Assembly: GCA_028876385.1 (NCBI GenBank)
Contig: JAGWSF010000062.1
Location: forward strand, 1-64,000
From: Acidobacteriota bacterium
GTDB lineage: Bacteria > Actinomycetota > Acidimicrobiia > Acidimicrobiales > Palsa-688
Length of the DNA stretch: 64,000 bases
Direction: 5' to 3'
Below are positions 11,027-53,088 of the stretch, piece after piece. The position numbers and the translations under genes are program-made. Within the stretch, counting starts at the first letter, position 1. The number at the start of each line of letters is the position of its first letter. Under the pieces are notes generated by a model. It was not told the DNA's origin and did no database searches. It worked only from the letters and a program-made list of their open reading frames with translations.

Positions 11027-12811
11027 TCAGCCGATGGTCAGGGCGGTTTCATCCTCGTGAACAGCACCGACCGGCCAGACCACGATCGGCCCCACGTCGA
11101 AGCGGACGCGGTCGCCGACCGGCTCGGTGGTACGGGCCCGCAGCTCTCCCCCGGGCAACCCGAGGGTCAATACGGTGACGCGGCCCAGGCTGGCCCGGTC
11201 CACGACATCGGCCTGGTAGCGGCCCTGCTCGCCGACGATGACGGTCTCGGGCCCGGCCCCCCAGAGCACCGCCCGGCCGGGCGCCGCCGATGCGCCGTCG
11301 GCCTCGAAGCGCTGGTCGCCGCACATCACCCCGCCCTCGACGGCGGTCCCCTCCAGGAGGTCGAACCCGAGCAGCCGGGCCACCTCGGGGCGCGACGGCC
11401 GGGTGAAGACCTCGGCCGTCGGGCCGGCCTGGAGGAGACACCCGTCGGCGAGGACGACCACCTCGTCGGAGAGCATGGCCGCCTCCTCGGCGTCGTGGGT
11501 GACCAGCACCGTGGACAGACCGGCCATCTGGAGCCGGCGGACCTCCCTTCGCATCTCGGCTCGCACCGGTGCGTCGAGAGCCGAAAACGGCTCGTCGAGC
11601 AGCAGCAGCCGGGGCTGGCGGGCCAGCGCCGAGGCCAGGCTGACCCGCTGACGTTGACCTCCCGACAGCTGGTGCGGACGGCGCCCCTCGAGGCCGCCCA
11701 GGCCGAGGGCGTCGACCCAGTAGGCGGCCAGCGCGGCGTCGGCGTCGACCCCGAACAGCACCTGGCGACCGACTTCGAGATGAGGAAAAAGGGACTGCCC
11801 CTGGGGCACATAGCCCACCCGGCGGTCCTCCACCCGGGGCTGAGGGAGCCCGCCGTAGGTGACGTGTCCGGCGCCGGGGACGAGCCCGGCGATGGACCGC
11901 AGAGTCAGGGACTTACCCGAACCGGAAGGCCCGAGAATGGCCAGGCGGTGGGCCCGGGCCTGGTGGGCGACCCTCAGGTGGAAGGTGCCGGCCCGGACGT
12001 CGAGGTCGAATCCGACCGGGACGGCGGCACCCGGCTCGGGCGGCCGGGGCGGACCGAGGCGGGGCGTGGGCCGCCGCAGGCGGACCTGGGACAAACCCAC
12101 GGCGACCGCCGCCGCCCCGATCACCAGGATCGTGGGGGCCTGGGTGGTGGGGATGCCCGACGCCGAGAACTGGACGTAGGTGTAGACCGGCAAGGAGAAG
12201 GGGTGGTAGGCCACGACCACGTTGGCGCCGTACTCGCCGATGGCTCGGAGCCAGGTGAGCAGCAACCCGACCCGGATACCGGACGAGGCGACGGCCAGGT
12301 CGACGGAGAAGAACCGGGCCAGAGGCCGGTGCCCGAGGGACGCGGCCAGGTCGTCGAGGGAACGGTCCACGGCGGCGAACGATGCCCGCGCCGAGAGAAT
12401 GAGGAAAGGCGCCGCCACGAAGATTTGGGACAGGACCACGCCGGCCACCGAGGAGGTCAACCGCCCGTGGAACCATCCGCCCACGGTGGTGTAGGGCCCG
12501 ATGAGGTAGACGATCAGGATCCCGCTCATGACCGGGGGCAGCCCCAGGGGCAGGGCGATGAGCCCCTGGACGAGGATCGAGCCGCGGCCGGGGTGGCGGG
12601 CCAGGGCCAAAGCCAGGGGAAGGCCGAGCACGGCGATCACCGCGGTGGCGATGGTGGCGCTCTCCACCGATGTCCGCAACGCCGGCCACAGACCGGGCTC
12701 GGCGAAGCCCCGCTGCGACGACGTGGACACCCGTACAGCGAAGGCCACCAGGGGTACGGCCAGGTAGACGACCAAGAGCCCGCCCAGCCAGGCGAACGGG
12801 CCTCGGCGCAT
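11027..12811 (-). CDS. Fused molybdate/tungstate ABC transporter, permease plus ATPase (ModB-ModC)
   Basis: Single chain joining an inner-membrane permease (about residues 1-245, with an EAA-type loop [17 protein letters not shown]) to an ABC ATPase and C-terminal TOBE-like domain. The ATPase has Walker A GPSGSGKS (about 294-301), the Q-loop in [10 protein letters not shown], signature [12 protein letters not shown] and Walker [13 protein letters not shown]. The YHP-containing loop resembles WtpB-type tungstate permeases. ModB and ModC are normally separate. I chose the ATG at 12811 because a TAGGAT -10 box (12824-12819) ends seven bases before it; the box overlaps an upstream ATG at 12820. 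No periplasmic binding protein is encoded in this window. Confidence 0.85.
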
Positions 12812-12859
12812 CAGGCCCATCCTAGTGCGGTAGTCAGGCGACGACTACGGCGCGGAGGG

Positions 12860-14478: not shown

Positions 14479-15237
14479 ATGGAGATAGACGGCAAGAAAG
14501 CAGTGATCGTCGGGGGCGCTTCGGGCATGGCCCGGGCCTCGGCGGAGATCCTCAAGGGAAGAGGCGCCTCCGTGGCCATCCTCGACCTGCCCACCTCGGC
14601 CGGCGCCGAAGTGGCCGAGAGCCTCGGTGGCAGCTTCCACCCCCTCGACGTGACCGACGAGGAGCAGGTCGCGGCGGCGCTGGCCGACGCCGTGGGCGCC
14701 CTCGGCGGACTTCACATCGCGGTCAACACCGCCGGCGGGGGGATCGCCAAACGGACCCTCACCAAGGAAGGACCCCACCCCCTGGCCGATTTCCGGCGGG
14801 TGGTCGAGCTCAACCTGATCGCCACCTTCAACCTCAACCGCCTGCAGGCCGAGTACATGTCGGCCAACGAGCCCGAGGACGGGGAGCGCGGCGTGATCGT
14901 CGACACCGCCTCGATCGCCGCCTTCGAGGGCCAGATCGGCCAGGTCGCCTACTCGGCGGCCAAGGCCGGTATCGCCGGGATGGTCTTCACCATGGCCCGC
15001 GACCTCGGCAACCTCGGGATCCGGGTGCTGGCCATCGCCCCCAGCCTGTTCAGCACCGGTATCACCGCCGGGATACCCGACGAGTTCGCCGACGCGCTGA
15101 CCAAGGATGCGGCCTTCCCCAAGCGCATGGGCCGTCCCGAAGAGTACGGCCGCCTGGTCGCCGCCATCGTGGAGAACCCGATGCTCAACGCCTCGACCAT
15201 CCGCCTCGACGCCGGCCAGCGTTTCGCCCCCCGCTGA
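14479..15237 (+). CDS. SDR oxidoreductase (3-hydroxyacyl-CoA dehydrogenase type II-like)
   Basis: Rossmann-fold dehydrogenase of 252 aa. It has the cofactor motif GGASGMARASAE near the N-terminus, an acidic residue after the second strand (ILDLP) favouring NAD, VNTAGGG, a serine in DTASIAAFEGQ and catalytic YSAAKAG. Its overall layout (insertion after NTAGGG, C-terminal RMGRPEEYG) resembles HSD17B10/3-hydroxyacyl-CoA dehydrogenase type 2. A TAGGTT -10 box (14465-14470) ends eight bases before the ATG. It could supply the dehydrogenase step of beta-oxidation (inference). Confidence 0.88.
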   Translation: MEIDGKKAVIVGGASGMARASAEILKGRGASVAILDLPTSAGAEVAESLGGSFHPLDVTDEEQVAAALADAVGALGGLHIAVNTAGGGIAKRTLTKEGPHPLADFRRVVELNLIATFNLNRLQAEYMSANEPEDGERGVIVDTASIAAFEGQIGQVAYSAAKAGIAGMVFTMARDLGNLGIRVLAIAPSLFSTGITAGIPDEFADALTKDAAFPKRMGRPEEYGRLVAAIVENPMLNASTIRLDAGQRFAPR

Positions 15238-15297: not shown

Positions 15298-16077
15298 TCA
15301 GCGACCCTTCCAGACGGGGTCGCGCTTTTCGACGAAGGCGGTAGCTCCCTCCTTGGCATCCTCGCTGCCGAAGATGGTCGGCGTCCACTCCTCGAGAAGG
15401 CGCCGGGCGTCGGCCATGTCCCCAGCCGACGCCCGCACGATCTTCTTGCTGGCGGCGACCGCCAACGGACCGTTGCGGGCTATGGCCTCGCCCAGAGCCA
15501 CCGCCTCGTCCACCACCCTCTCGGCGGCCACCACCCGGTTCACCAACCCCAACTCGTAGGCCCGGGCGGCGTCGATCTGCTCGCCCGTCAACGCCAGCTC
15601 CAAGGCCACGGCCACCGGGATCCGCGAGGCCAGCAGCACGCCGCCCCCGGCGGCGATGAGTCCCCGCTTCACCTCCGGGATCCCGAAGCGGGCGGTGTCG
15701 GCGGCGACGACGAGATCACACGACAGGAGCAGCTCGAAACCACCGGCCACGGCCGTGGCCTGAGCCGCCCCGATGACGGGGACCGTCGCCCCCCCTTCGC
15801 GCAGCAGGCGGTAGAACATCCGGCGGTCGGCTTCCTCTTCCGGTGCCCCACCCCGACCCTCGGAGAACGCTCTCAGGTCCATACCGGCGCAGAACGCCCG
15901 ATCGCCCGTGCCGGTGAGCACTACGGCGCGGATGTCGGGGTCGGCCTCGACTCTGGCCAACGCCCGCCCCAGTGCCGCACTCAACTCCGGCGAGAGGGCG
16001 TTGCGGGCCTCCGGGCGGTTGAGTCGGAGCACCTCCACCGCGCCGCGCCGCTCGGTTACCAGAACCGTCTCGTCCAC
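15298..16077 (-). CDS. Enoyl-CoA hydratase (crotonase family)
   Basis: The 259 aa crotonase-fold protein keeps both catalytic glutamates of enoyl-CoA hydratase, in AVAGGFELLLSCD and GIPEVKRG. It also has the CoA-binding RAFCAGMDL oxyanion segment and a C-terminal KRDPVWKGR typical of the family. The open frame extends to 16917 but is the antisense of the next gene there. The GTG at 16077 has a strong GGGAGGGG Shine-Dalgarno and marks where homology begins. A TAGCGT -10 box lies about 28 bases upstream on the minus strand, so this gene has a leader. Confidence 0.92.
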   Translation of the reverse strand: MDETVLVTERRGAVEVLRLNRPEARNALSPELSAALGRALARVEADPDIRAVVLTGTGDRAFCAGMDLRAFSEGRGGAPEEEADRRMFYRLLREGGATVPVIGAAQATAVAGGFELLLSCDLVVAADTARFGIPEVKRGLIAAGGGVLLASRIPVAVALELALTGEQIDAARAYELGLVNRVVAAERVVDEAVALGEAIARNGPLAVAASKKIVRASAGDMADARRLLEEWTPTIFGSEDAKEGATAFVEKRDPVWKGR

Positions 16078-16192: not shown

Positions 16193-18349
16193 ATGCCCAT
16201 CGCCATTTCCGATGACCACCAGGCTCTAGCCGAAACGGCCCGGGACTTCCTAGCCAAAAGCGGTGCTCGAAGCGCCAACCGGGCCCTCCTCGAAGCCGCC
16301 TCGGAAGGCCTGCCTACCTTCTGGGCCGAGATGGCATCCCTCGGCTGGTTGGGCCTGCACCTGCCCGAGGACCTGGGCGGCTCGGGCTTCGGCCTGCCCG
16401 AGCTCGTAGTCGTGGTGGAGCAGCTCGGCCGGGCCATCTGCCCCGGGCCGTTCGTCCCCACCGTCATCGCCAGTGCCACCATCGACGAAGCGGGGAGTGA
16501 CGGGTTGCGCAGTGCTCTGCTTCCCGGGCTGGCCGACGGGTCTCGAACCGCGGCGATCGGCCTGCGGGGCGAGCTGAGCGTGTCGGGCGGCACCGTCTCG
16601 GGCCGGGCCCCCGGCGTGCTCGGAGCCCCGACGGCTGACCTGCTCGTCGTGGTGGCCGGCGACGACGTGGCGGTGGTGGAGCGTGCCGCGGACGGCGTGA
16701 GGCTCGAGGAGCTGTCCAACCTCGACCCGGCCCGACGCTCGGCGCATGTCACCTTCAGCGGCGCACCGGCGCAGGTCATCACCGGCGGTCGGCAGATACT
16801 GGTCGACACGGCCCGGGTCCTCCTGGCCGCCGAAGCCACCGGGGTGGCCTCCGCCACCACCGAGATGGCCGCCCAGTACGCCCGTGACCGCATCCAGTTC
16901 GGGCGCCCGATCGGCACCTACCAGGCCGTCAAGCACCACTGCGCCAACATGGCCGTCGCCGCCGAGCTGGCCACCTCGGCCACCTGGGACGCGTCGCGCG
17001 CCGGGCACAGCGGCCCCGCGGAGCGGGCCTACAGCGCGGCTATCGCCGCCACCCTGGCCGTGCCGGCGGCGGTGGAGAAAGCCCAGACCAACATCCAGGT
17101 GCACGGAGGCATCGGGTTCACCTGGGAGCACGACGCCCACCTGTACCTCCGCCGGGCGGCGGCCATCGCCGCCCTGCTCGACACCGATCAGACGGCCCGT
17201 GACGTCACCGACCAGGCCCGCGCCGGGGTGGTCCGCAGCCGAGCCGTGGACCTGCCCCCGGAGGCCGAGACCATACGCCAGGAGGTGGTGCGCTTCGTCG
17301 AGCAGGTCAAGGACATGAGCCGCGAGGACCGGCGGACGGCCATGCTCGAAAGCGGCTACGCCGTCCCTCACTGGCCGACGCCCTGGGGCCGCAACGCCGG
17401 AGCGGTCGAGCAGCTGGTGATCGAGCAGGAGTTCGCCGCGGCGGGGATCCACAAGCCGCAGTACGGGATCACCGGCTGGGTGATCCTGACTCTGGTGCAG
17501 CACGCCACCGAGGACCAGATCGCCCGCTGGGTGGCCCCGGCCCTGGCCCAGGAGGTCATCTGGTGTCAGCTGTTCAGCGAGCCCGACGCCGGCTCCGACG
17601 CGGCGGGCATCAAGACCCGCGGTAAGCGGGTGGAGGGCGGCTGGCTGGTCAACGGCCAGAAGGTGTGGACGAGCGGGGCCCATCTGGCTTCCTACGGGCT
17701 GGCGACCATCCGCACCGACCCCGACGTGCCCAAGCACAAGGGCATCACCATGATGGTGATCGACATGCACGGTCCGGGGGTCACGGTGCGCCCGCTGCGC
17801 CAGGCCACCGGTGACTCGGACTTCAACGAGGTGTTCTTCAACGACGTGTTCGTCCCCGACGACGACGTGGTCGGCCCGGTGGACGGCGGCTGGACCGTGG
17901 CCCGGGCCACTCTCGGCAACGAGAGCGTGAGCATCGGTGGCGGAGGGGGAGGTCTGAGCATCCCCCACGACGCCCTCCTCCAGTCCTACGACGCCGCCCC
18001 CGAACGCCTGGCCGGGGGCGCCGAGCGCCTGGGCCGGTACATCGCCCAGCAGCAGGCCACCGAACTGCTCAACATGCGCAGCGCTCACCGGGCCGTGGCC
18101 GGAGGCGAACCGGGCCCGGAGGGAGCCATGACCAAGCTGGTGCTGTCCGAGCTGGTACAGGAGGCGGCCCGCATCCTCTTCGCCGTCGGCGGCGTCGACT
18201 CCGCCTTCCTCGACGGCCCGGGGATGCCCGGGGCGCGGGCCACGCTGGGCAGTCGGGCCCTGTCCATCGCCGGTGGGACGTCGGAGATCAAGCGCAACCA
18301 GATCGGCGAGCGCATTCTCGGCCTGCCCCGCGACCCTCTGATCAACTGA
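16193..18349 (+). CDS. Double-length fused acyl-CoA dehydrogenase (FadE34-like)
   Basis: The 718 aa protein contains two acyl-CoA dehydrogenase modules. The N-terminal half (about 1-345) has LPEDLGGSGFGLPELVVVVEQLG, RDRIQFGRPIGTYQAVKH and QVHGGIGFTWEHD. The C-terminal half (about 350-718) has FSEPDAGSD, NGQKVWTSGA and GGTSEIKRNQIGERILGLPR. The usual EGT catalytic glutamate of MCAD is AGGT here. The architecture and length match fused alpha-beta enzymes such as mycobacterial FadE34 (ChsE3) of steroid side-chain oxidation. The ATG follows a TAGGTT -10 box (16181-16186) by six bases. It sits just before the DUF35-thiolase gene in the same direction. Substrate not determined. Confidence 0.9.
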   Translation: MPIAISDDHQALAETARDFLAKSGARSANRALLEAASEGLPTFWAEMASLGWLGLHLPEDLGGSGFGLPELVVVVEQLGRAICPGPFVPTVIASATIDEAGSDGLRSALLPGLADGSRTAAIGLRGELSVSGGTVSGRAPGVLGAPTADLLVVVAGDDVAVVERAADGVRLEELSNLDPARRSAHVTFSGAPAQVITGGRQILVDTARVLLAAEATGVASATTEMAAQYARDRIQFGRPIGTYQAVKHHCANMAVAAELATSATWDASRAGHSGPAERAYSAAIAATLAVPAAVEKAQTNIQVHGGIGFTWEHDAHLYLRRAAAIAALLDTDQTARDVTDQARAGVVRSRAVDLPPEAETIRQEVVRFVEQVKDMSREDRRTAMLESGYAVPHWPTPWGRNAGAVEQLVIEQEFAAAGIHKPQYGITGWVILTLVQHATEDQIARWVAPALAQEVIWCQLFSEPDAGSDAAGIKTRGKRVEGGWLVNGQKVWTSGAHLASYGLATIRTDPDVPKHKGITMMVIDMHGPGVTVRPLRQATGDSDFNEVFFNDVFVPDDDVVGPVDGGWTVARATLGNESVSIGGGGGGLSIPHDALLQSYDAAPERLAGGAERLGRYIAQQQATELLNMRSAHRAVAGGEPGPEGAMTKLVLSELVQEAARILFAVGGVDSAFLDGPGMPGARATLGSRALSIAGGTSEIKRNQIGERILGLPRDPLIN

Positions 18350-18392: not shown

Positions 18393-20105
18393 ATGACCGA
18401 AGTGGCCCCCGTAACGGCCCGCAACCTCCCGCCCCTCACCGACGATAACCGGGCCTTCCTCCAAGGGGGACGGGAGGGGCGTCTGATGGTGGGGCGTTGT
18501 CCCGGGTGTGGGCGGTGGGCGCTTCCCCCTCACACCGTGTGCCCCGACTGCGGGCAGGGGCTGCTCGCGGTCGCGGCGAGCGGCCGGGCCCGCCTGCTCA
18601 CCTGGACGACCAACAGTCACCCCTACCACCCTGACCTCCCCGTCCCCTATCTGATCGCCGTCGTCGTCCTCGTCGAGCAGGACGACCTGCGCCTGGCCAC
18701 CAATCTGATCGGCTGCACGGAGGCCGACATTCGCCCGGGCATGGAGCTGGCCGTCGCCTTCGAGAACCACGGCGAGTCCTTCTACCCGGTCTTCCGCCCG
18801 GTCGATGCCGCCGACGGGGCCACGGGGTCGGCGACGACGCCCCGGCTGCCGGAGGCCGCCGAGGCCACCCCGACCGCAGGGATCGACCGGGCGGCGGTCG
18901 GAGGCGGCCGGATGGCGTCCGGAAAGGCGCGGCCGGCAGCGGCACCGGAGCGGGGGGCGGTCATCTCCGGCATCGGGATGTCCCGCATCGGTCGGCGCAC
19001 CGGGCAGGCCCACGCCGACATGACCATGGCGGCGGTGAGGGAGGCCATCGCCGACGCCGGGCTGGCACCCGGCGACATCGACGGAGTGGCCTCCCTCGGC
19101 GACACCCCGCCCGCCGAGGTGGCCCGGGCGCTCGGTATCGAGCCCCGCTTCCACGGGGGCGGCGTCGACGACGGGGGCCTGCTGGCCCCGGTCATGGCGT
19201 CGGCCGTAGCCATCGGCGAGCAACGGGCCCGCCACGTAGTGGTCTACCGGACGGTGCAGATGCTCGGCGGCGGCATGGCCCCGACCGAGGGCGCACAACG
19301 GCCGGCCGGCGACGCCCTGGCCGCGCTCGGGCGGGTGATGGTCGACGCCGGGGATCTGCTGGCGGCCAACGCCTTCTCGGCCGCCAACTGGCTGGCCCTG
19401 ACCGCCCGCCGGCACATGGACCTGTACGGCACCACCAAAGAGCAACTCGGGTGGCTGGCCGTCAACTCCCGCCGCAACGCCGGGCTGAACCCCGCCGCCG
19501 TCTACCGGGACCCCATAACCATGGACGACTACCTGGCCGCCCGCCCGGTGTCGAGCCCGTTCGGGCTGCTCGACTGCGATGTGCCCGTCGACGGTTCCAT
19601 CGCCTTCGTGCTGTCCAGCGCCGCCTACGGGCCCGACGCCCCCCACCGCGCCCCGCGCCTCGAAGCCATCGGCGTCTCGCCCGGTACGGGCGGGTGGTTC
19701 CACCGTCCCGACTACCCGAGGATGGCGTCCTGGGACGCGGCCGCGGACTTGTGGAGCCGCACCGAGTTGAGGCCCGGGGATGTGCAGATGGCCCAGCTCT
19801 ACGACGGGTTCACGTTCCTGACCCTGGCGTGGCTGGAGGCCCTCGGGCTGTGCGGAGAGGGCGAATCGGGTCCGTTCGTCGAGGGGGCCAGTCGTATCTG
19901 CCTCACCGGCGAACTCCCCCTCAACACCTACGGGGGTCAGCTGTCGGCCGGTCGTATGCACGGCTACTGGGTGCTGCACGAGGCCTGCCTGCAGATGCGC
20001 GGCCAAGCCGGCGACCGGCAGGTTCCCCGGACCCCCGAGGTGGCGGTGGTCGGGGTGGGTGGCGGCCCCATCGCCGGGTGCCTGCTGCTCACCGGTCCCC
20101 GCTAG
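18393..20105 (+). CDS. DUF35 (OB-fold/Zn ribbon) fused to thiolase-fold aldolase-like domain
   Basis: An N-terminal DUF35 domain has the zinc ribbon CPGCGRWALPPHTVCPDCG and an OB fold. A low-complexity linker leads to an SCP2-type thiolase fold (about residues 190-570). The thiolase half lacks the nucleophilic cysteine (GGGVDDGGL where the Cys loop should be) and reads GGQLSAGRMHG where thiolases have GxxxGHPxG. That combination matches Ltp2-type retro-aldolases, which work with a DUF35 partner (ChsH2) in steroid side-chain cleavage. I chose the ATG at 18393 (570 aa) because TAGGAT (18380-18385) ends seven bases before it; the -10 box itself contains an in-frame ATG. Aldolase function is inference. 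Confidence 0.85.
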   Translation: MTEVAPVTARNLPPLTDDNRAFLQGGREGRLMVGRCPGCGRWALPPHTVCPDCGQGLLAVAASGRARLLTWTTNSHPYHPDLPVPYLIAVVVLVEQDDLRLATNLIGCTEADIRPGMELAVAFENHGESFYPVFRPVDAADGATGSATTPRLPEAAEATPTAGIDRAAVGGGRMASGKARPAAAPERGAVISGIGMSRIGRRTGQAHADMTMAAVREAIADAGLAPGDIDGVASLGDTPPAEVARALGIEPRFHGGGVDDGGLLAPVMASAVAIGEQRARHVVVYRTVQMLGGGMAPTEGAQRPAGDALAALGRVMVDAGDLLAANAFSAANWLALTARRHMDLYGTTKEQLGWLAVNSRRNAGLNPAAVYRDPITMDDYLAARPVSSPFGLLDCDVPVDGSIAFVLSSAAYGPDAPHRAPRLEAIGVSPGTGGWFHRPDYPRMASWDAAADLWSRTELRPGDVQMAQLYDGFTFLTLAWLEALGLCGEGESGPFVEGASRICLTGELPLNTYGGQLSAGRMHGYWVLHEACLQMRGQAGDRQVPRTPEVAVVGVGGGPIAGCLLLTGPR

Positions 20106-51511: not shown

Positions 51512-51931
51512 CTACGCCCGCGGCGAAGCGTAAGGCAGCCAGATGTCCCCACCCGCGGGATGGAACGTCACCTCGAGAGGCATGTCCTCGCGGATGTCCT
51601 CGGCGGTGCAGCCCACCAGGGCGGTCACCAGCCACCACCCCTCCTCCACGGCCATGACCGCCGGGGCGTAGGGCGTTACGAACGAAGGATGCTGCGGCCG
51701 CCACACCACCGTCCAGGTGTGCAGTCGGCCCCGGCCGCTCGACTCCAGCCAGGTCAGGTCACCTCCCTGGCAGCGCCAGCAGCGCCTCAGCGGCCGAGGC
51801 GGGATGTGGCCGCAGTTGGCGCACTTCTGGTAGGTCAACCGGCCCTCGCGGGCGGCGTCCCAGTAGGGCCTCGACACCGGCGAGGGACTGGGCAGCGGGA
51901 TACCCGCCGGTTGGGGTGCGAGAACGCTCAC
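51512..51931 (-). CDS. DUF35 OB-fold / zinc-ribbon protein (stand-alone)
   Basis: The 139 aa protein has a zinc ribbon KCANCGHIPPRPLRRCWRCQ near the N-terminus, followed by the OB-fold strands GRLHTWTVVWRPQHPSFVTPYAPAVMAVEEGWWLVTALVGC. DUF35 proteins bind and stabilise thiolase-fold or MaoC-fold partners (for example ChsH2). The GTG at 51931 overlaps the stop of the upstream thiolase gene (GTGA). The ORF seen up to 52885 is only its antisense-like extension. It is the split counterpart of the N-terminal domain of the 18393-20105 fusion. Confidence 0.9.
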   Translation of the reverse strand: MSVLAPQPAGIPLPSPSPVSRPYWDAAREGRLTYQKCANCGHIPPRPLRRCWRCQGGDLTWLESSGRGRLHTWTVVWRPQHPSFVTPYAPAVMAVEEGWWLVTALVGCTAEDIREDMPLEVTFHPAGGDIWLPYASPRA

Positions 51932-53088
51932 GGCCGCTCCTTGCCGAGAAGGATCACATCGGTGAACAGCGCACCCGATCCACCGTTGCTGCAGACCACC
52001 ACTTCGGCTCCGGGCACCTGGCGGGTCGGGCACGTGCCCCGGATCTGCTGTACGCCTCTGATCACGCGCTGCAACTGCTGGGCGTTGACCCCGGGATGAC
52101 TGAAGGACATGGTGCCGCCGTCGGTGGTCACCGGGATGGCTCCGTCCGGCCCGATGTTGCCGTCTGCGACGAACGGGCCACCTTCCCCCTCGGCGCAGAA
52201 GCCCAACACCTCCATCTGCCGGATGATCTCGAACGAGAACGGGTCGTACAGTTCGGCCACGTCGACATCCTCCGGGCCGATGCCGGCCTGGCGGTAGGAC
52301 TGGGCGGCGGCGGCGGCCCCGACCCGGCCGGCCGGATCGCCGGTGCGGCCGGTCATCTCCCATACCGGGGCGATCTGGTAGGCCGGCCCGTACGAGTCGC
52401 TCCCCCCGCCCAGGATCCACGCCGGTGCCGGCTGTGCCGAACCGACGAGGTCGGCGTGGGCCAGGACCAGGCCGCACCCGCCCTCGCTGGTGGTGGCGCA
52501 GTCGAGGAGGTGGAACGGGTCGGCCACCATCCGCGAGGCCAGGATGTCCTCGGCCTCGAACGGCCCCCGCCCGTAGTAGACGGCTTGCGGGTTGACGTGG
52601 GCGTTGTTCCGGATGGTGGCCGCCACCGTGGCCATCTGCTCGGGGGTGGTGCCGTAGGTGAGCATGTGGCGCCGGGCCATGAGGGCGAACTCGGCGGCGG
52701 TGAACAGCCCGTAGCCGACGACCATCTCGTTGGCCGGTCGGGTCCATGGCGCGGTGGCCCGGCGGTCGGTGTAGACCGCCGCGCCTCCGGCTCCGAGCAG
52801 CACCACTCGGGCCTGGCCGCAGGCGATCATCTGGGCCGCCTGGAGGACCGCCGGTATGCCGAGCGGGTTGGGCACCCGGGCGCACGGCCCCATCCCGAAG
52901 GCCAGGACCATCTCCTGGCTGAAGTTGCCGATCACCGCGTCGACCTGGGCCGGGTCGATACCGGCGTCGGCGAGAGCCCCGGCGGCGCCCTCCAGGGCTA
53001 TCGATTCGGAGTCGTGACCCTCCAAGACGCGGGCCTGGGCGGTGTTGTGGACCCCGAGGATGGCCACGTCATGGTAGGGGTGTGACAC
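51928..53088 (-). CDS. Thiolase-fold (SCP2/acetyl-CoA acetyltransferase-like) protein
   Basis: The 386 aa thiolase-superfamily protein begins SHPYHDVAILGVHNTAQARVLEGHDS. The nucleophilic Cys loop of true thiolases is missing: the region reads RVPNPLGIPAVLQAAQMIACGQ, and the only visible cysteine lies in the following helix. The C-terminus reads FSHPGVNAQQLQRVIRG. It is paired with a DUF35 protein, as in Ltp2-ChsH2 type retro-aldolases, so cleavage of a beta-hydroxyacyl-CoA is a possible role. The GTG at 53088 follows TATAGT (53100-53095) by six bases. Order is thiolase then DUF35, the reverse of the fused gene. Confidence 0.85.
   Translation of the reverse strand: MSHPYHDVAILGVHNTAQARVLEGHDSESIALEGAAGALADAGIDPAQVDAVIGNFSQEMVLAFGMGPCARVPNPLGIPAVLQAAQMIACGQARVVLLGAGGAAVYTDRRATAPWTRPANEMVVGYGLFTAAEFALMARRHMLTYGTTPEQMATVAATIRNNAHVNPQAVYYGRGPFEAEDILASRMVADPFHLLDCATTSEGGCGLVLAHADLVGSAQPAPAWILGGGSDSYGPAYQIAPVWEMTGRTGDPAGRVGAAAAAQSYRQAGIGPEDVDVAELYDPFSFEIIRQMEVLGFCAEGEGGPFVADGNIGPDGAIPVTTDGGTMSFSHPGVNAQQLQRVIRGVQQIRGTCPTRQVPGAEVVVCSNGGSGALFTDVILLGKERP

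Follow-up and report, generated by a model that had tools for sequence, protein, structure and literature searches.

The window, the whole 64,000-nt stretch of DNA analysed here, carries on its forward strand (18393..20105) a gene whose product, judged by its sequence, is a single-chain member of a large, uncharacterised thiolase-superfamily clade beside Ltp2 and thus close to known aldolases of steroid side chains. We give a probability of about one half to the reading that this protein is a cysteine-independent, retro-aldol-type C–C lyase of a bulky acyl-CoA, with an Ltp2-like pocket. We would class it neither as an Ltp2 nor as a thiolase: defining residues of each were looked for and are replaced.

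A DUF35 domain and a thiolase fold in one chain

The gene is a single uninterrupted frame that ends with a stop at 20105 and starts at ATG 18393, giving 570 aa, or at the alternative ATG 18384, giving 573 aa. Three Pfam domains score above their cut-offs: a zf-ChsH2 zinc ribbon at residues 24–54 (18462..18554, +), OB_ChsH2_C, the OB-fold half of DUF35, at residues 60–124 (18570..18764, +), and Thiolase_C_1 at residues 438–558. In the translation the ribbon has the spacing C-x2-C-x10-C-x2-C (C36, C39, C50 and C53), and on sequence alone both the four-cysteine zinc ribbon and the OB fold of a ChsH2-type DUF35 are present. A linker (residues 138–185; 18804..18947, +) leads into the thiolase-fold half (residues 186–570; 18948..20102, +), which was delimited by Pfam, sequence and fold matches. 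The nearest NCBIfam models, ‘lipid-transfer protein’ and ‘acetyl-CoA acetyltransferase’, both lie well below cut-off.

The ortholog in the congeneric genome G002 is likewise fused and is 92% identical to the window protein. With the Pfam order and the single frame, it confirms what the first-pass annotation had read from the sequence, namely that DUF35 is joined at the N-terminus and that both partners occupy one chain. An assembly artefact, in which a missed stop or a frameshift joins two genes, could draw on a split paralog with overlapping TGATG in the same genome; however, the two orthologous genes come from independent genomes and measure 1710 nt each, with zero indels and with the linker open in both. 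The fusion is therefore real and no assembly slip, and we find the artefact very hard to credit. An internal translation start at a methionine of the linker (GGRM) was also considered and dropped, because the congener carries Asn at that site. Between the two genes Ka/Ks is 0.15 for the thiolase half, 0.48 for DUF35 and 0.64 for the linker; the value for the thiolase half indicates purifying selection.

Among 397 genomes of the order, six match the window protein at E 1e-125 or better. Full 570-residue matches at high identity are limited to two congeners (100% and 92%), and one more match spans residues 12–567 at 45% identity and contains an internal stop. At that threshold G001, the third of the congeneric genomes searched, gave no match.

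The thiolase half resembles Ltp2

The comparison of a predicted structure with Ltp2, which the first-pass annotation had proposed, was carried out on an AlphaFold2 model built from 29 clade sequences (alignment A1; mean pLDDT 81.8, pTM 0.85). Confidence is low in two stretches of the model, residues 141–180 of the linker, with pLDDT below 50, and residues 292–309. Ltp2 (6ok1_A) ranks first in a Foldseek search and is also the best fold match by VIA-align, with Z 49.2 and an rmsd of 1.6 Å over 361 residues; these matches span residues 183–570 and so compare the thiolase half, without the DUF35 half. Sal (Z 45.5, 2.4 Å) and the putative thiolase 4u4e (Z 45.3, 2.1 Å) follow, and the other structures among the matches listed reach Z 43.3 at most. 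By phmmer against the PDB, the thiolase half again finds 6ok1_A best, at 151 bits, and among DUF35 chains the best match is the ChsH2 partner of Ltp2, 6ok1_B, at 62 bits. Identity to Ltp2 in the fold alignments is 31–33%.

An altered set of catalytic residues

In a MAFFT alignment with the solved thiolase 7yvy, Asp260 (19170..19172, +) occupies the column of the nucleophilic cysteine. The motif YDGF (residues 470–473; 19800..19811, +) places Tyr470 at Ltp2 Tyr294 and Gly472 at Ltp2 His296 and Sal Cys304, and Arg521 (19953..19955, +) stands at Ltp2 Tyr344, Sal Gln352 and the GHP histidine of 7yvy. The nucleophilic cysteine and the GHP motif are thus missing, as had been noted at first pass; the description of the domain as ‘Cys-less’ was wrong as worded, since the thiolase half holds five cysteines (395, 487, 503, 532 and 563). 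The two catalytic columns examined, the nucleophile column and the third position of Y/HDxF, contain no cysteine. All 29 proteins of A1 carry Cys395, and a cysteine stands at this site in Ltp2 and 4u4e as well.

These replacements are shared across the clade. In an 83-row alignment the nucleophile column holds cysteine in 7yvy and in three paralogs from the window's own genome, and in 0 of the 64 YDGF rows; the Tyr/Gly/Arg set occurs in all 64, and the arginine in 0 of the 19 other rows. Tyr470, Gly472 and Arg521 are invariant in 29/29 clade proteins of A1. That alignment omits L067, whose frame is oddly long, and L072, a diverged member; YDGF and the arginine are present in these two as well. 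At the locus level YDGF appears in 102 of 103 loci in the frame read, and GGQLSxGR in 103 of 103; the named loci were found by patterns, one of which fixed GGQLSxG but left the arginine free.

For what the individual residues do in Ltp2 and Sal, we follow PMC12329534. There, the tyrosine equivalent to Tyr470 proves essential for Sal, and the authors state the same for Ltp2; His296 of the Ltp2 YDHF motif forms the oxyanion hole and Tyr344 is the catalytic acid; and replacement of Sal Cys304 by Ala, Ser or His abolishes activity. From the Ltp2 trio Tyr294/His296/Tyr344, the base alone is kept, as Tyr470, with Gly472 and Arg521 in the other two places. As aligned, the Tyr470/Gly472/Arg521 set matches neither Ltp2 nor Sal. 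The kinship with Ltp2 and ChsH2 drawn in the first-pass annotation stands in that these are the nearest solved relatives (Ltp2 by sequence and fold, the ChsH2 DUF35 by sequence), and it breaks down at His296 and Tyr344, which are replaced. In the open-access literature we found no account of an Arg/YDGF aldolase, which is no proof of absence; among the matches listed there for YDHF, YDCY or YDGF, only the Sal paper was recognisable as concerning this family.

Fusion arose more than once

A scan of genome contigs returned at least 581 relatives, from which we kept 80 named loci: 36 of the closest type, here A-type (L093–L128), and 44 that are more distant (L129–L172). The titles of 30 of the 36 A-type loci name Mycobacterium, Mycolicibacterium or Mycobacteriaceae. 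A quick tree of 83 rows comprised 9 of the 36 A-type loci, 24 of the 44 others, 46 proteins from further genomes and four PDB stretches; its 9myr row holds the C-terminal part only, and several paralogs sit on long branches. The clade, including its diverged split member L072, has an SH-aLRT of 99 in this tree. The thiolase half from G053, a genome of the same order, groups with that of a Candidatus Microthrix parvicella MAG at zero-length end branches, which makes an Acidimicrobiia bacterium the likely source of the window.

Fused proteins fall into three groups on the tree: the window genus, a large B-type clade with members from Mycobacterium, Nocardia, Rhodococcus, Streptomyces, Actinocorallia, Acidimicrobiia and others, and a protein of the window's own genome that lies beside Ltp2. 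Three changes in fusion state are needed, and the AU test rejects one common origin (p-AU 1.6e-36). By blastp, 0 of the 36 A-type loci are fused, against 40 of the 44 other named loci, and the four unfused loci of L129–L172 lie outside the B-type clade. One B-type fused protein, L067 (G001:C145), lies in an 820-aa open frame, in which additional N-terminal residues may precede the zinc ribbon. We rejected the fusion itself as a novelty, given these 40 loci, the three changes on the tree and the statement, in print since 2010, that DUF35 homologs are fused to thiolase-superfamily members (PMC2954200). The single-chain layout emphasised at first pass is accordingly real, although it is neither unique nor new, and the window's own genome holds a further example (L019, below).

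The own-genome split paralog is of the same subtype, its thiolase 68% and its DUF35 55% identical to the window protein, with the two genes overlapping at TGATG. An exclusive grouping of this paralog with the window pair is neither supported nor rejected (p-AU 0.36). By tblastn the A-type loci have a DUF35 match upstream of the thiolase and on the opposite strand in 36/36 cases; in the own-genome split paralog and in G003 the DUF35 gene is codirectional with the thiolase, and it is plausible that such a codirectional pair was a step towards fusion.

A closer relative of Ltp2 in the same genome

In the genome that carries the window (G000), 20 zf-ChsH2 matches were counted, and a single 155-kb contig (C51) accounts for six. 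The paralogs in this genome show the motifs YDHF, YDCF, YDCY, YDAF, YDPF, YENF and YDGF side by side. One of them, at C39:68319-69968 (L019/L181), is a single-chain DUF35–Ltp2 protein by Pfam and scores 415 bits to 6ok1_A. Like the window protein, it has DUF35 N-terminal to the thiolase fold in one chain. Unlike the window protein, it is much closer to Ltp2 and keeps a tyrosine at the 344 position, with YENF replacing YDHF; on the tree it is a fusion separate from that of the window protein. To go by these residues and scores, L019/L181 is a better candidate than the window protein for the single-chain retro-aldolase that the first-pass annotation had in mind. Matches that also span its DUF35 region occur in three of the 61 genomes searched (G000, G002 and G003, in G003 from residue 32), and the remaining ones, among the matches listed, start at residue 158 or later. 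The gene adjoins others that read as amino-acid biosynthesis.

The gene neighbourhood

Directly upstream of the window gene, a double-domain acyl-CoA dehydrogenase of 718 aa (16193..18349, +) ends 34 bases before ATG 18384; such a neighbour suggests a bulky cyclic substrate. An SDR of the type II 3-hydroxyacyl-CoA dehydrogenase (HSD10) kind (14479..15237, +) has as its best PDB match 1so8, a 3-hydroxyacyl-CoA dehydrogenase type II, at 240 bits. Between the two, in the window as in its congener, lies a crotonase-type enoyl-CoA hydratase on the reverse strand (15298..16068, −), with EchA19 as its best NCBIfam model, below cut-off. The neighbours as a whole include acyl-CoA dehydrogenase, hydratase, CoA-transferase and monooxygenase genes. 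When ten of them were scanned with NCBIfam (E 1e-10 or better), the crotonase was present, and neither MaoC nor an aldehyde dehydrogenase appeared among the matches listed; no second thiolase appeared among these ten either. A MaoC hydratase partner, as ChsH1-ChsH2 is for Ltp2, may lie farther away in the genome.

Part of this arrangement recurs. Of the 36 named A-type loci, 21, all with Mycobacterium in their titles, have relatives of both the SDR (68–73% identity) and the double acyl-CoA dehydrogenase (55–58%) close to the thiolase; among the 44 other named loci the count is 0. In 17 of the 21, no more than about 650 bases lie between the end of the dehydrogenase and the thiolase match, and in the other four (L104, L105, L117 and L126) the gap is 2.1–2.9 kb. 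Three of the other 15 A-type loci (L093, L097 and L114) have short upstream flanks, so that missing genes there are uninformative. Searched for in the same 36 A-type loci, the window's crotonase, aldo-keto reductase and monooxygenase find no match that reaches 40% identity. Across 23 clade loci, a tally of 117 neighbours from crude gene calls counted SDR 10 times, Amidohydro_2 and the DUF35 OB fold 9 times each, acyl-CoA dehydrogenase 8, luciferase-like proteins and P450 7 each, and MaoC and aldehyde dehydrogenase 2 each; no hydratase partner of the ChsH1-H2 or Shy kind is prominent in it.

Other genes of the window and of the fused loci were read alongside. At 51512-53088 (−) the window holds a second, unfused DUF35/thiolase-like pair with YDPF and a histidine at the 344 position, and the genes around it read by eye as a P450 and two amidohydrolases. 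A 597-aa ABC protein at 11027-12820 (−) has, by reading, a permease-like N-terminal half and an ABC ATPase second half; Pfam detects the ATPase alone. In the Mycobacterium fused loci L133–L171, amidohydrolase-, alpha/beta hydrolase-, NAD-binding dehydrogenase- and P450-like genes recur, with labels given by reading the sequences.

Comparison with known systems

Unlike SCP2 and the classical thiolases, the window protein has Asp260 for the nucleophilic cysteine and Arg521 for the GHP histidine. IpfE is a DUF35 protein. The thiolase encoded by ipfDE in ibuprofen degraders is credited with the release of propionyl-CoA (PMC9195938); the system differs from the window protein in being two genes and in coming from Rhizorhabdus. 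Ltp2–ChsH2(DUF35) of Thermomonospora curvata (6ok1) shares with the window protein a thiolase fold without the nucleophilic cysteine, a four-cysteine zinc-ribbon DUF35 partner, here in cis, and the base tyrosine in YDxF, but it consists of two chains and has His296 and Tyr344 where the single chain of the window has Gly472 and Arg521. Sal–Shy(DUF35) of Comamonas testosteroni (9myr) likewise shares the fold, the DUF35, the base tyrosine and the loss of the nucleophilic cysteine. In contrast to the window protein, Sal requires Cys304, in YDCY, and has Gln352 (PMC12329534), and in Shy a MaoC hydratase is joined to the DUF35, whose zinc site is of the Cys3His type (PMC12329534, PMC11321319). Atf1 with ChsH4, from Mycolicibacterium neoaurum, resembles our system as an actinobacterial aldolase with a stand-alone 138-aa DUF35 (PMC10398937), but its two genes lie in a different operon, with a reductase and a regulator. 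The fused DUF35–thiolase proteins of PMC2954200 show the same domain fusion, and the passage of that paper that mentions them gives no catalytic assignment.

Proposed function and its alternatives

In the mechanism that we favour, a bulky acyl-CoA would be bound in an Ltp2-like pocket and undergo C–C cleavage independent of cysteine. Tyr470 would act as the general base on the beta-hydroxyl, in a retro-aldol reaction, and Arg521, in the place of the Ltp2 acid Tyr344 and of the GHP histidine, would hold the thioester enolate; protonation could come from Tyr470 or water, and the products would be a ketone or aldehyde and a short acyl-CoA. The fused DUF35 would act in cis as the staple, a part played in trans by ChsH2, Shy or ChsH4. 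Ordinary thiolysis is unlikely because the nucleophile and GHP are lost, and it is the retained tyrosine together with the Ltp2-like fold that favours retro-aldol chemistry, with Tyr470 as putative base and Arg521 as putative enolate clamp. The window protein may work like Ltp2 despite the missing residues; even so, the known mechanisms are not directly transferable, because His296, Tyr344 and the Cys304 and Gln352 of Sal are all absent. Since two of the Ltp2 residues are missing and the Cys304 mutants of Sal are dead, the clade may carry out other chemistry. The scan of ten neighbours, in which no MaoC or aldehyde dehydrogenase came up among the models listed, also counts against the retro-aldol reading.

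The strongest result against a retro-aldol reaction is the co-conserved dehydrogenase. An HSD10-type enzyme in the conserved set suggests a beta-keto substrate, whereas the Ltp2 and Sal pathways skip the 3-hydroxyacyl-CoA dehydrogenase step and cleave the beta-hydroxy compound (PMC12329534). We therefore keep as a serious rival, if one to which we give tentative credence, a cysteine-independent retro-Claisen cleavage, in which a beta-ketoacyl-CoA would be split by water or CoA without an acyl-enzyme and would close a beta-oxidation round of the double acyl-CoA dehydrogenase, the crotonase and the HSD10-like dehydrogenase. The 21/36 versus 0/44 distribution of the SDR and the 718-aa dehydrogenase speaks for it, as does the crotonase set between them in the window and its congener, but the 21 loci, being all Mycobacterium, may represent one lineage, the crotonase was not found in them, and the base tyrosine is that of the aldolases. 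We know of no thiolase-superfamily member that performs a retro-Claisen reaction without cysteine. HSD10-like enzymes also oxidise other hydroxyls, and the SDR may therefore act elsewhere in the pathway. Somewhat more doubtful is the broader proposal that the Tyr/Gly/Arg clade embodies a third, cysteine-free catalytic design of the superfamily, running a retro-Claisen reaction without an acyl-enzyme, rather than a retro-aldol one, on a substrate supplied by the HSD10-type dehydrogenase.

Two readings dispense with lysis altogether. Replacement of the nucleophile, of the GHP histidine and of two residues out of the Ltp2 trio would fit a protein that has no catalytic role and serves to bind acyl-CoA or as a scaffold, the part ascribed to PhlA within PhlABC (PMC2954200). 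The invariance of Tyr470, Gly472 and Arg521 in 29 proteins, the Ka/Ks of the thiolase half and the lack of a second thiolase among the ten neighbours scanned make this improbable. A biosynthetic condensing enzyme, working in the aldol or Claisen direction, seems slightly less probable yet: such chemistry can in principle run either way, and synthetic PhlABC-type relatives (PMC2954200) are among the fold matches, but the acyl-CoA dehydrogenase, hydratase, CoA-transferase and monooxygenase neighbours read as catabolic.

The NCBIfam labels nearest to the window protein are those of a lipid-transfer protein and an acetyl-CoA acetyltransferase, though the residues for thiolysis are absent. In the single-chain versions, co-expression of a DUF35 partner is no longer needed, and the residue triad and the recurrent gene set turn the choice between an aldolase, a retro-Claisen enzyme and a dead one into a directly testable question.
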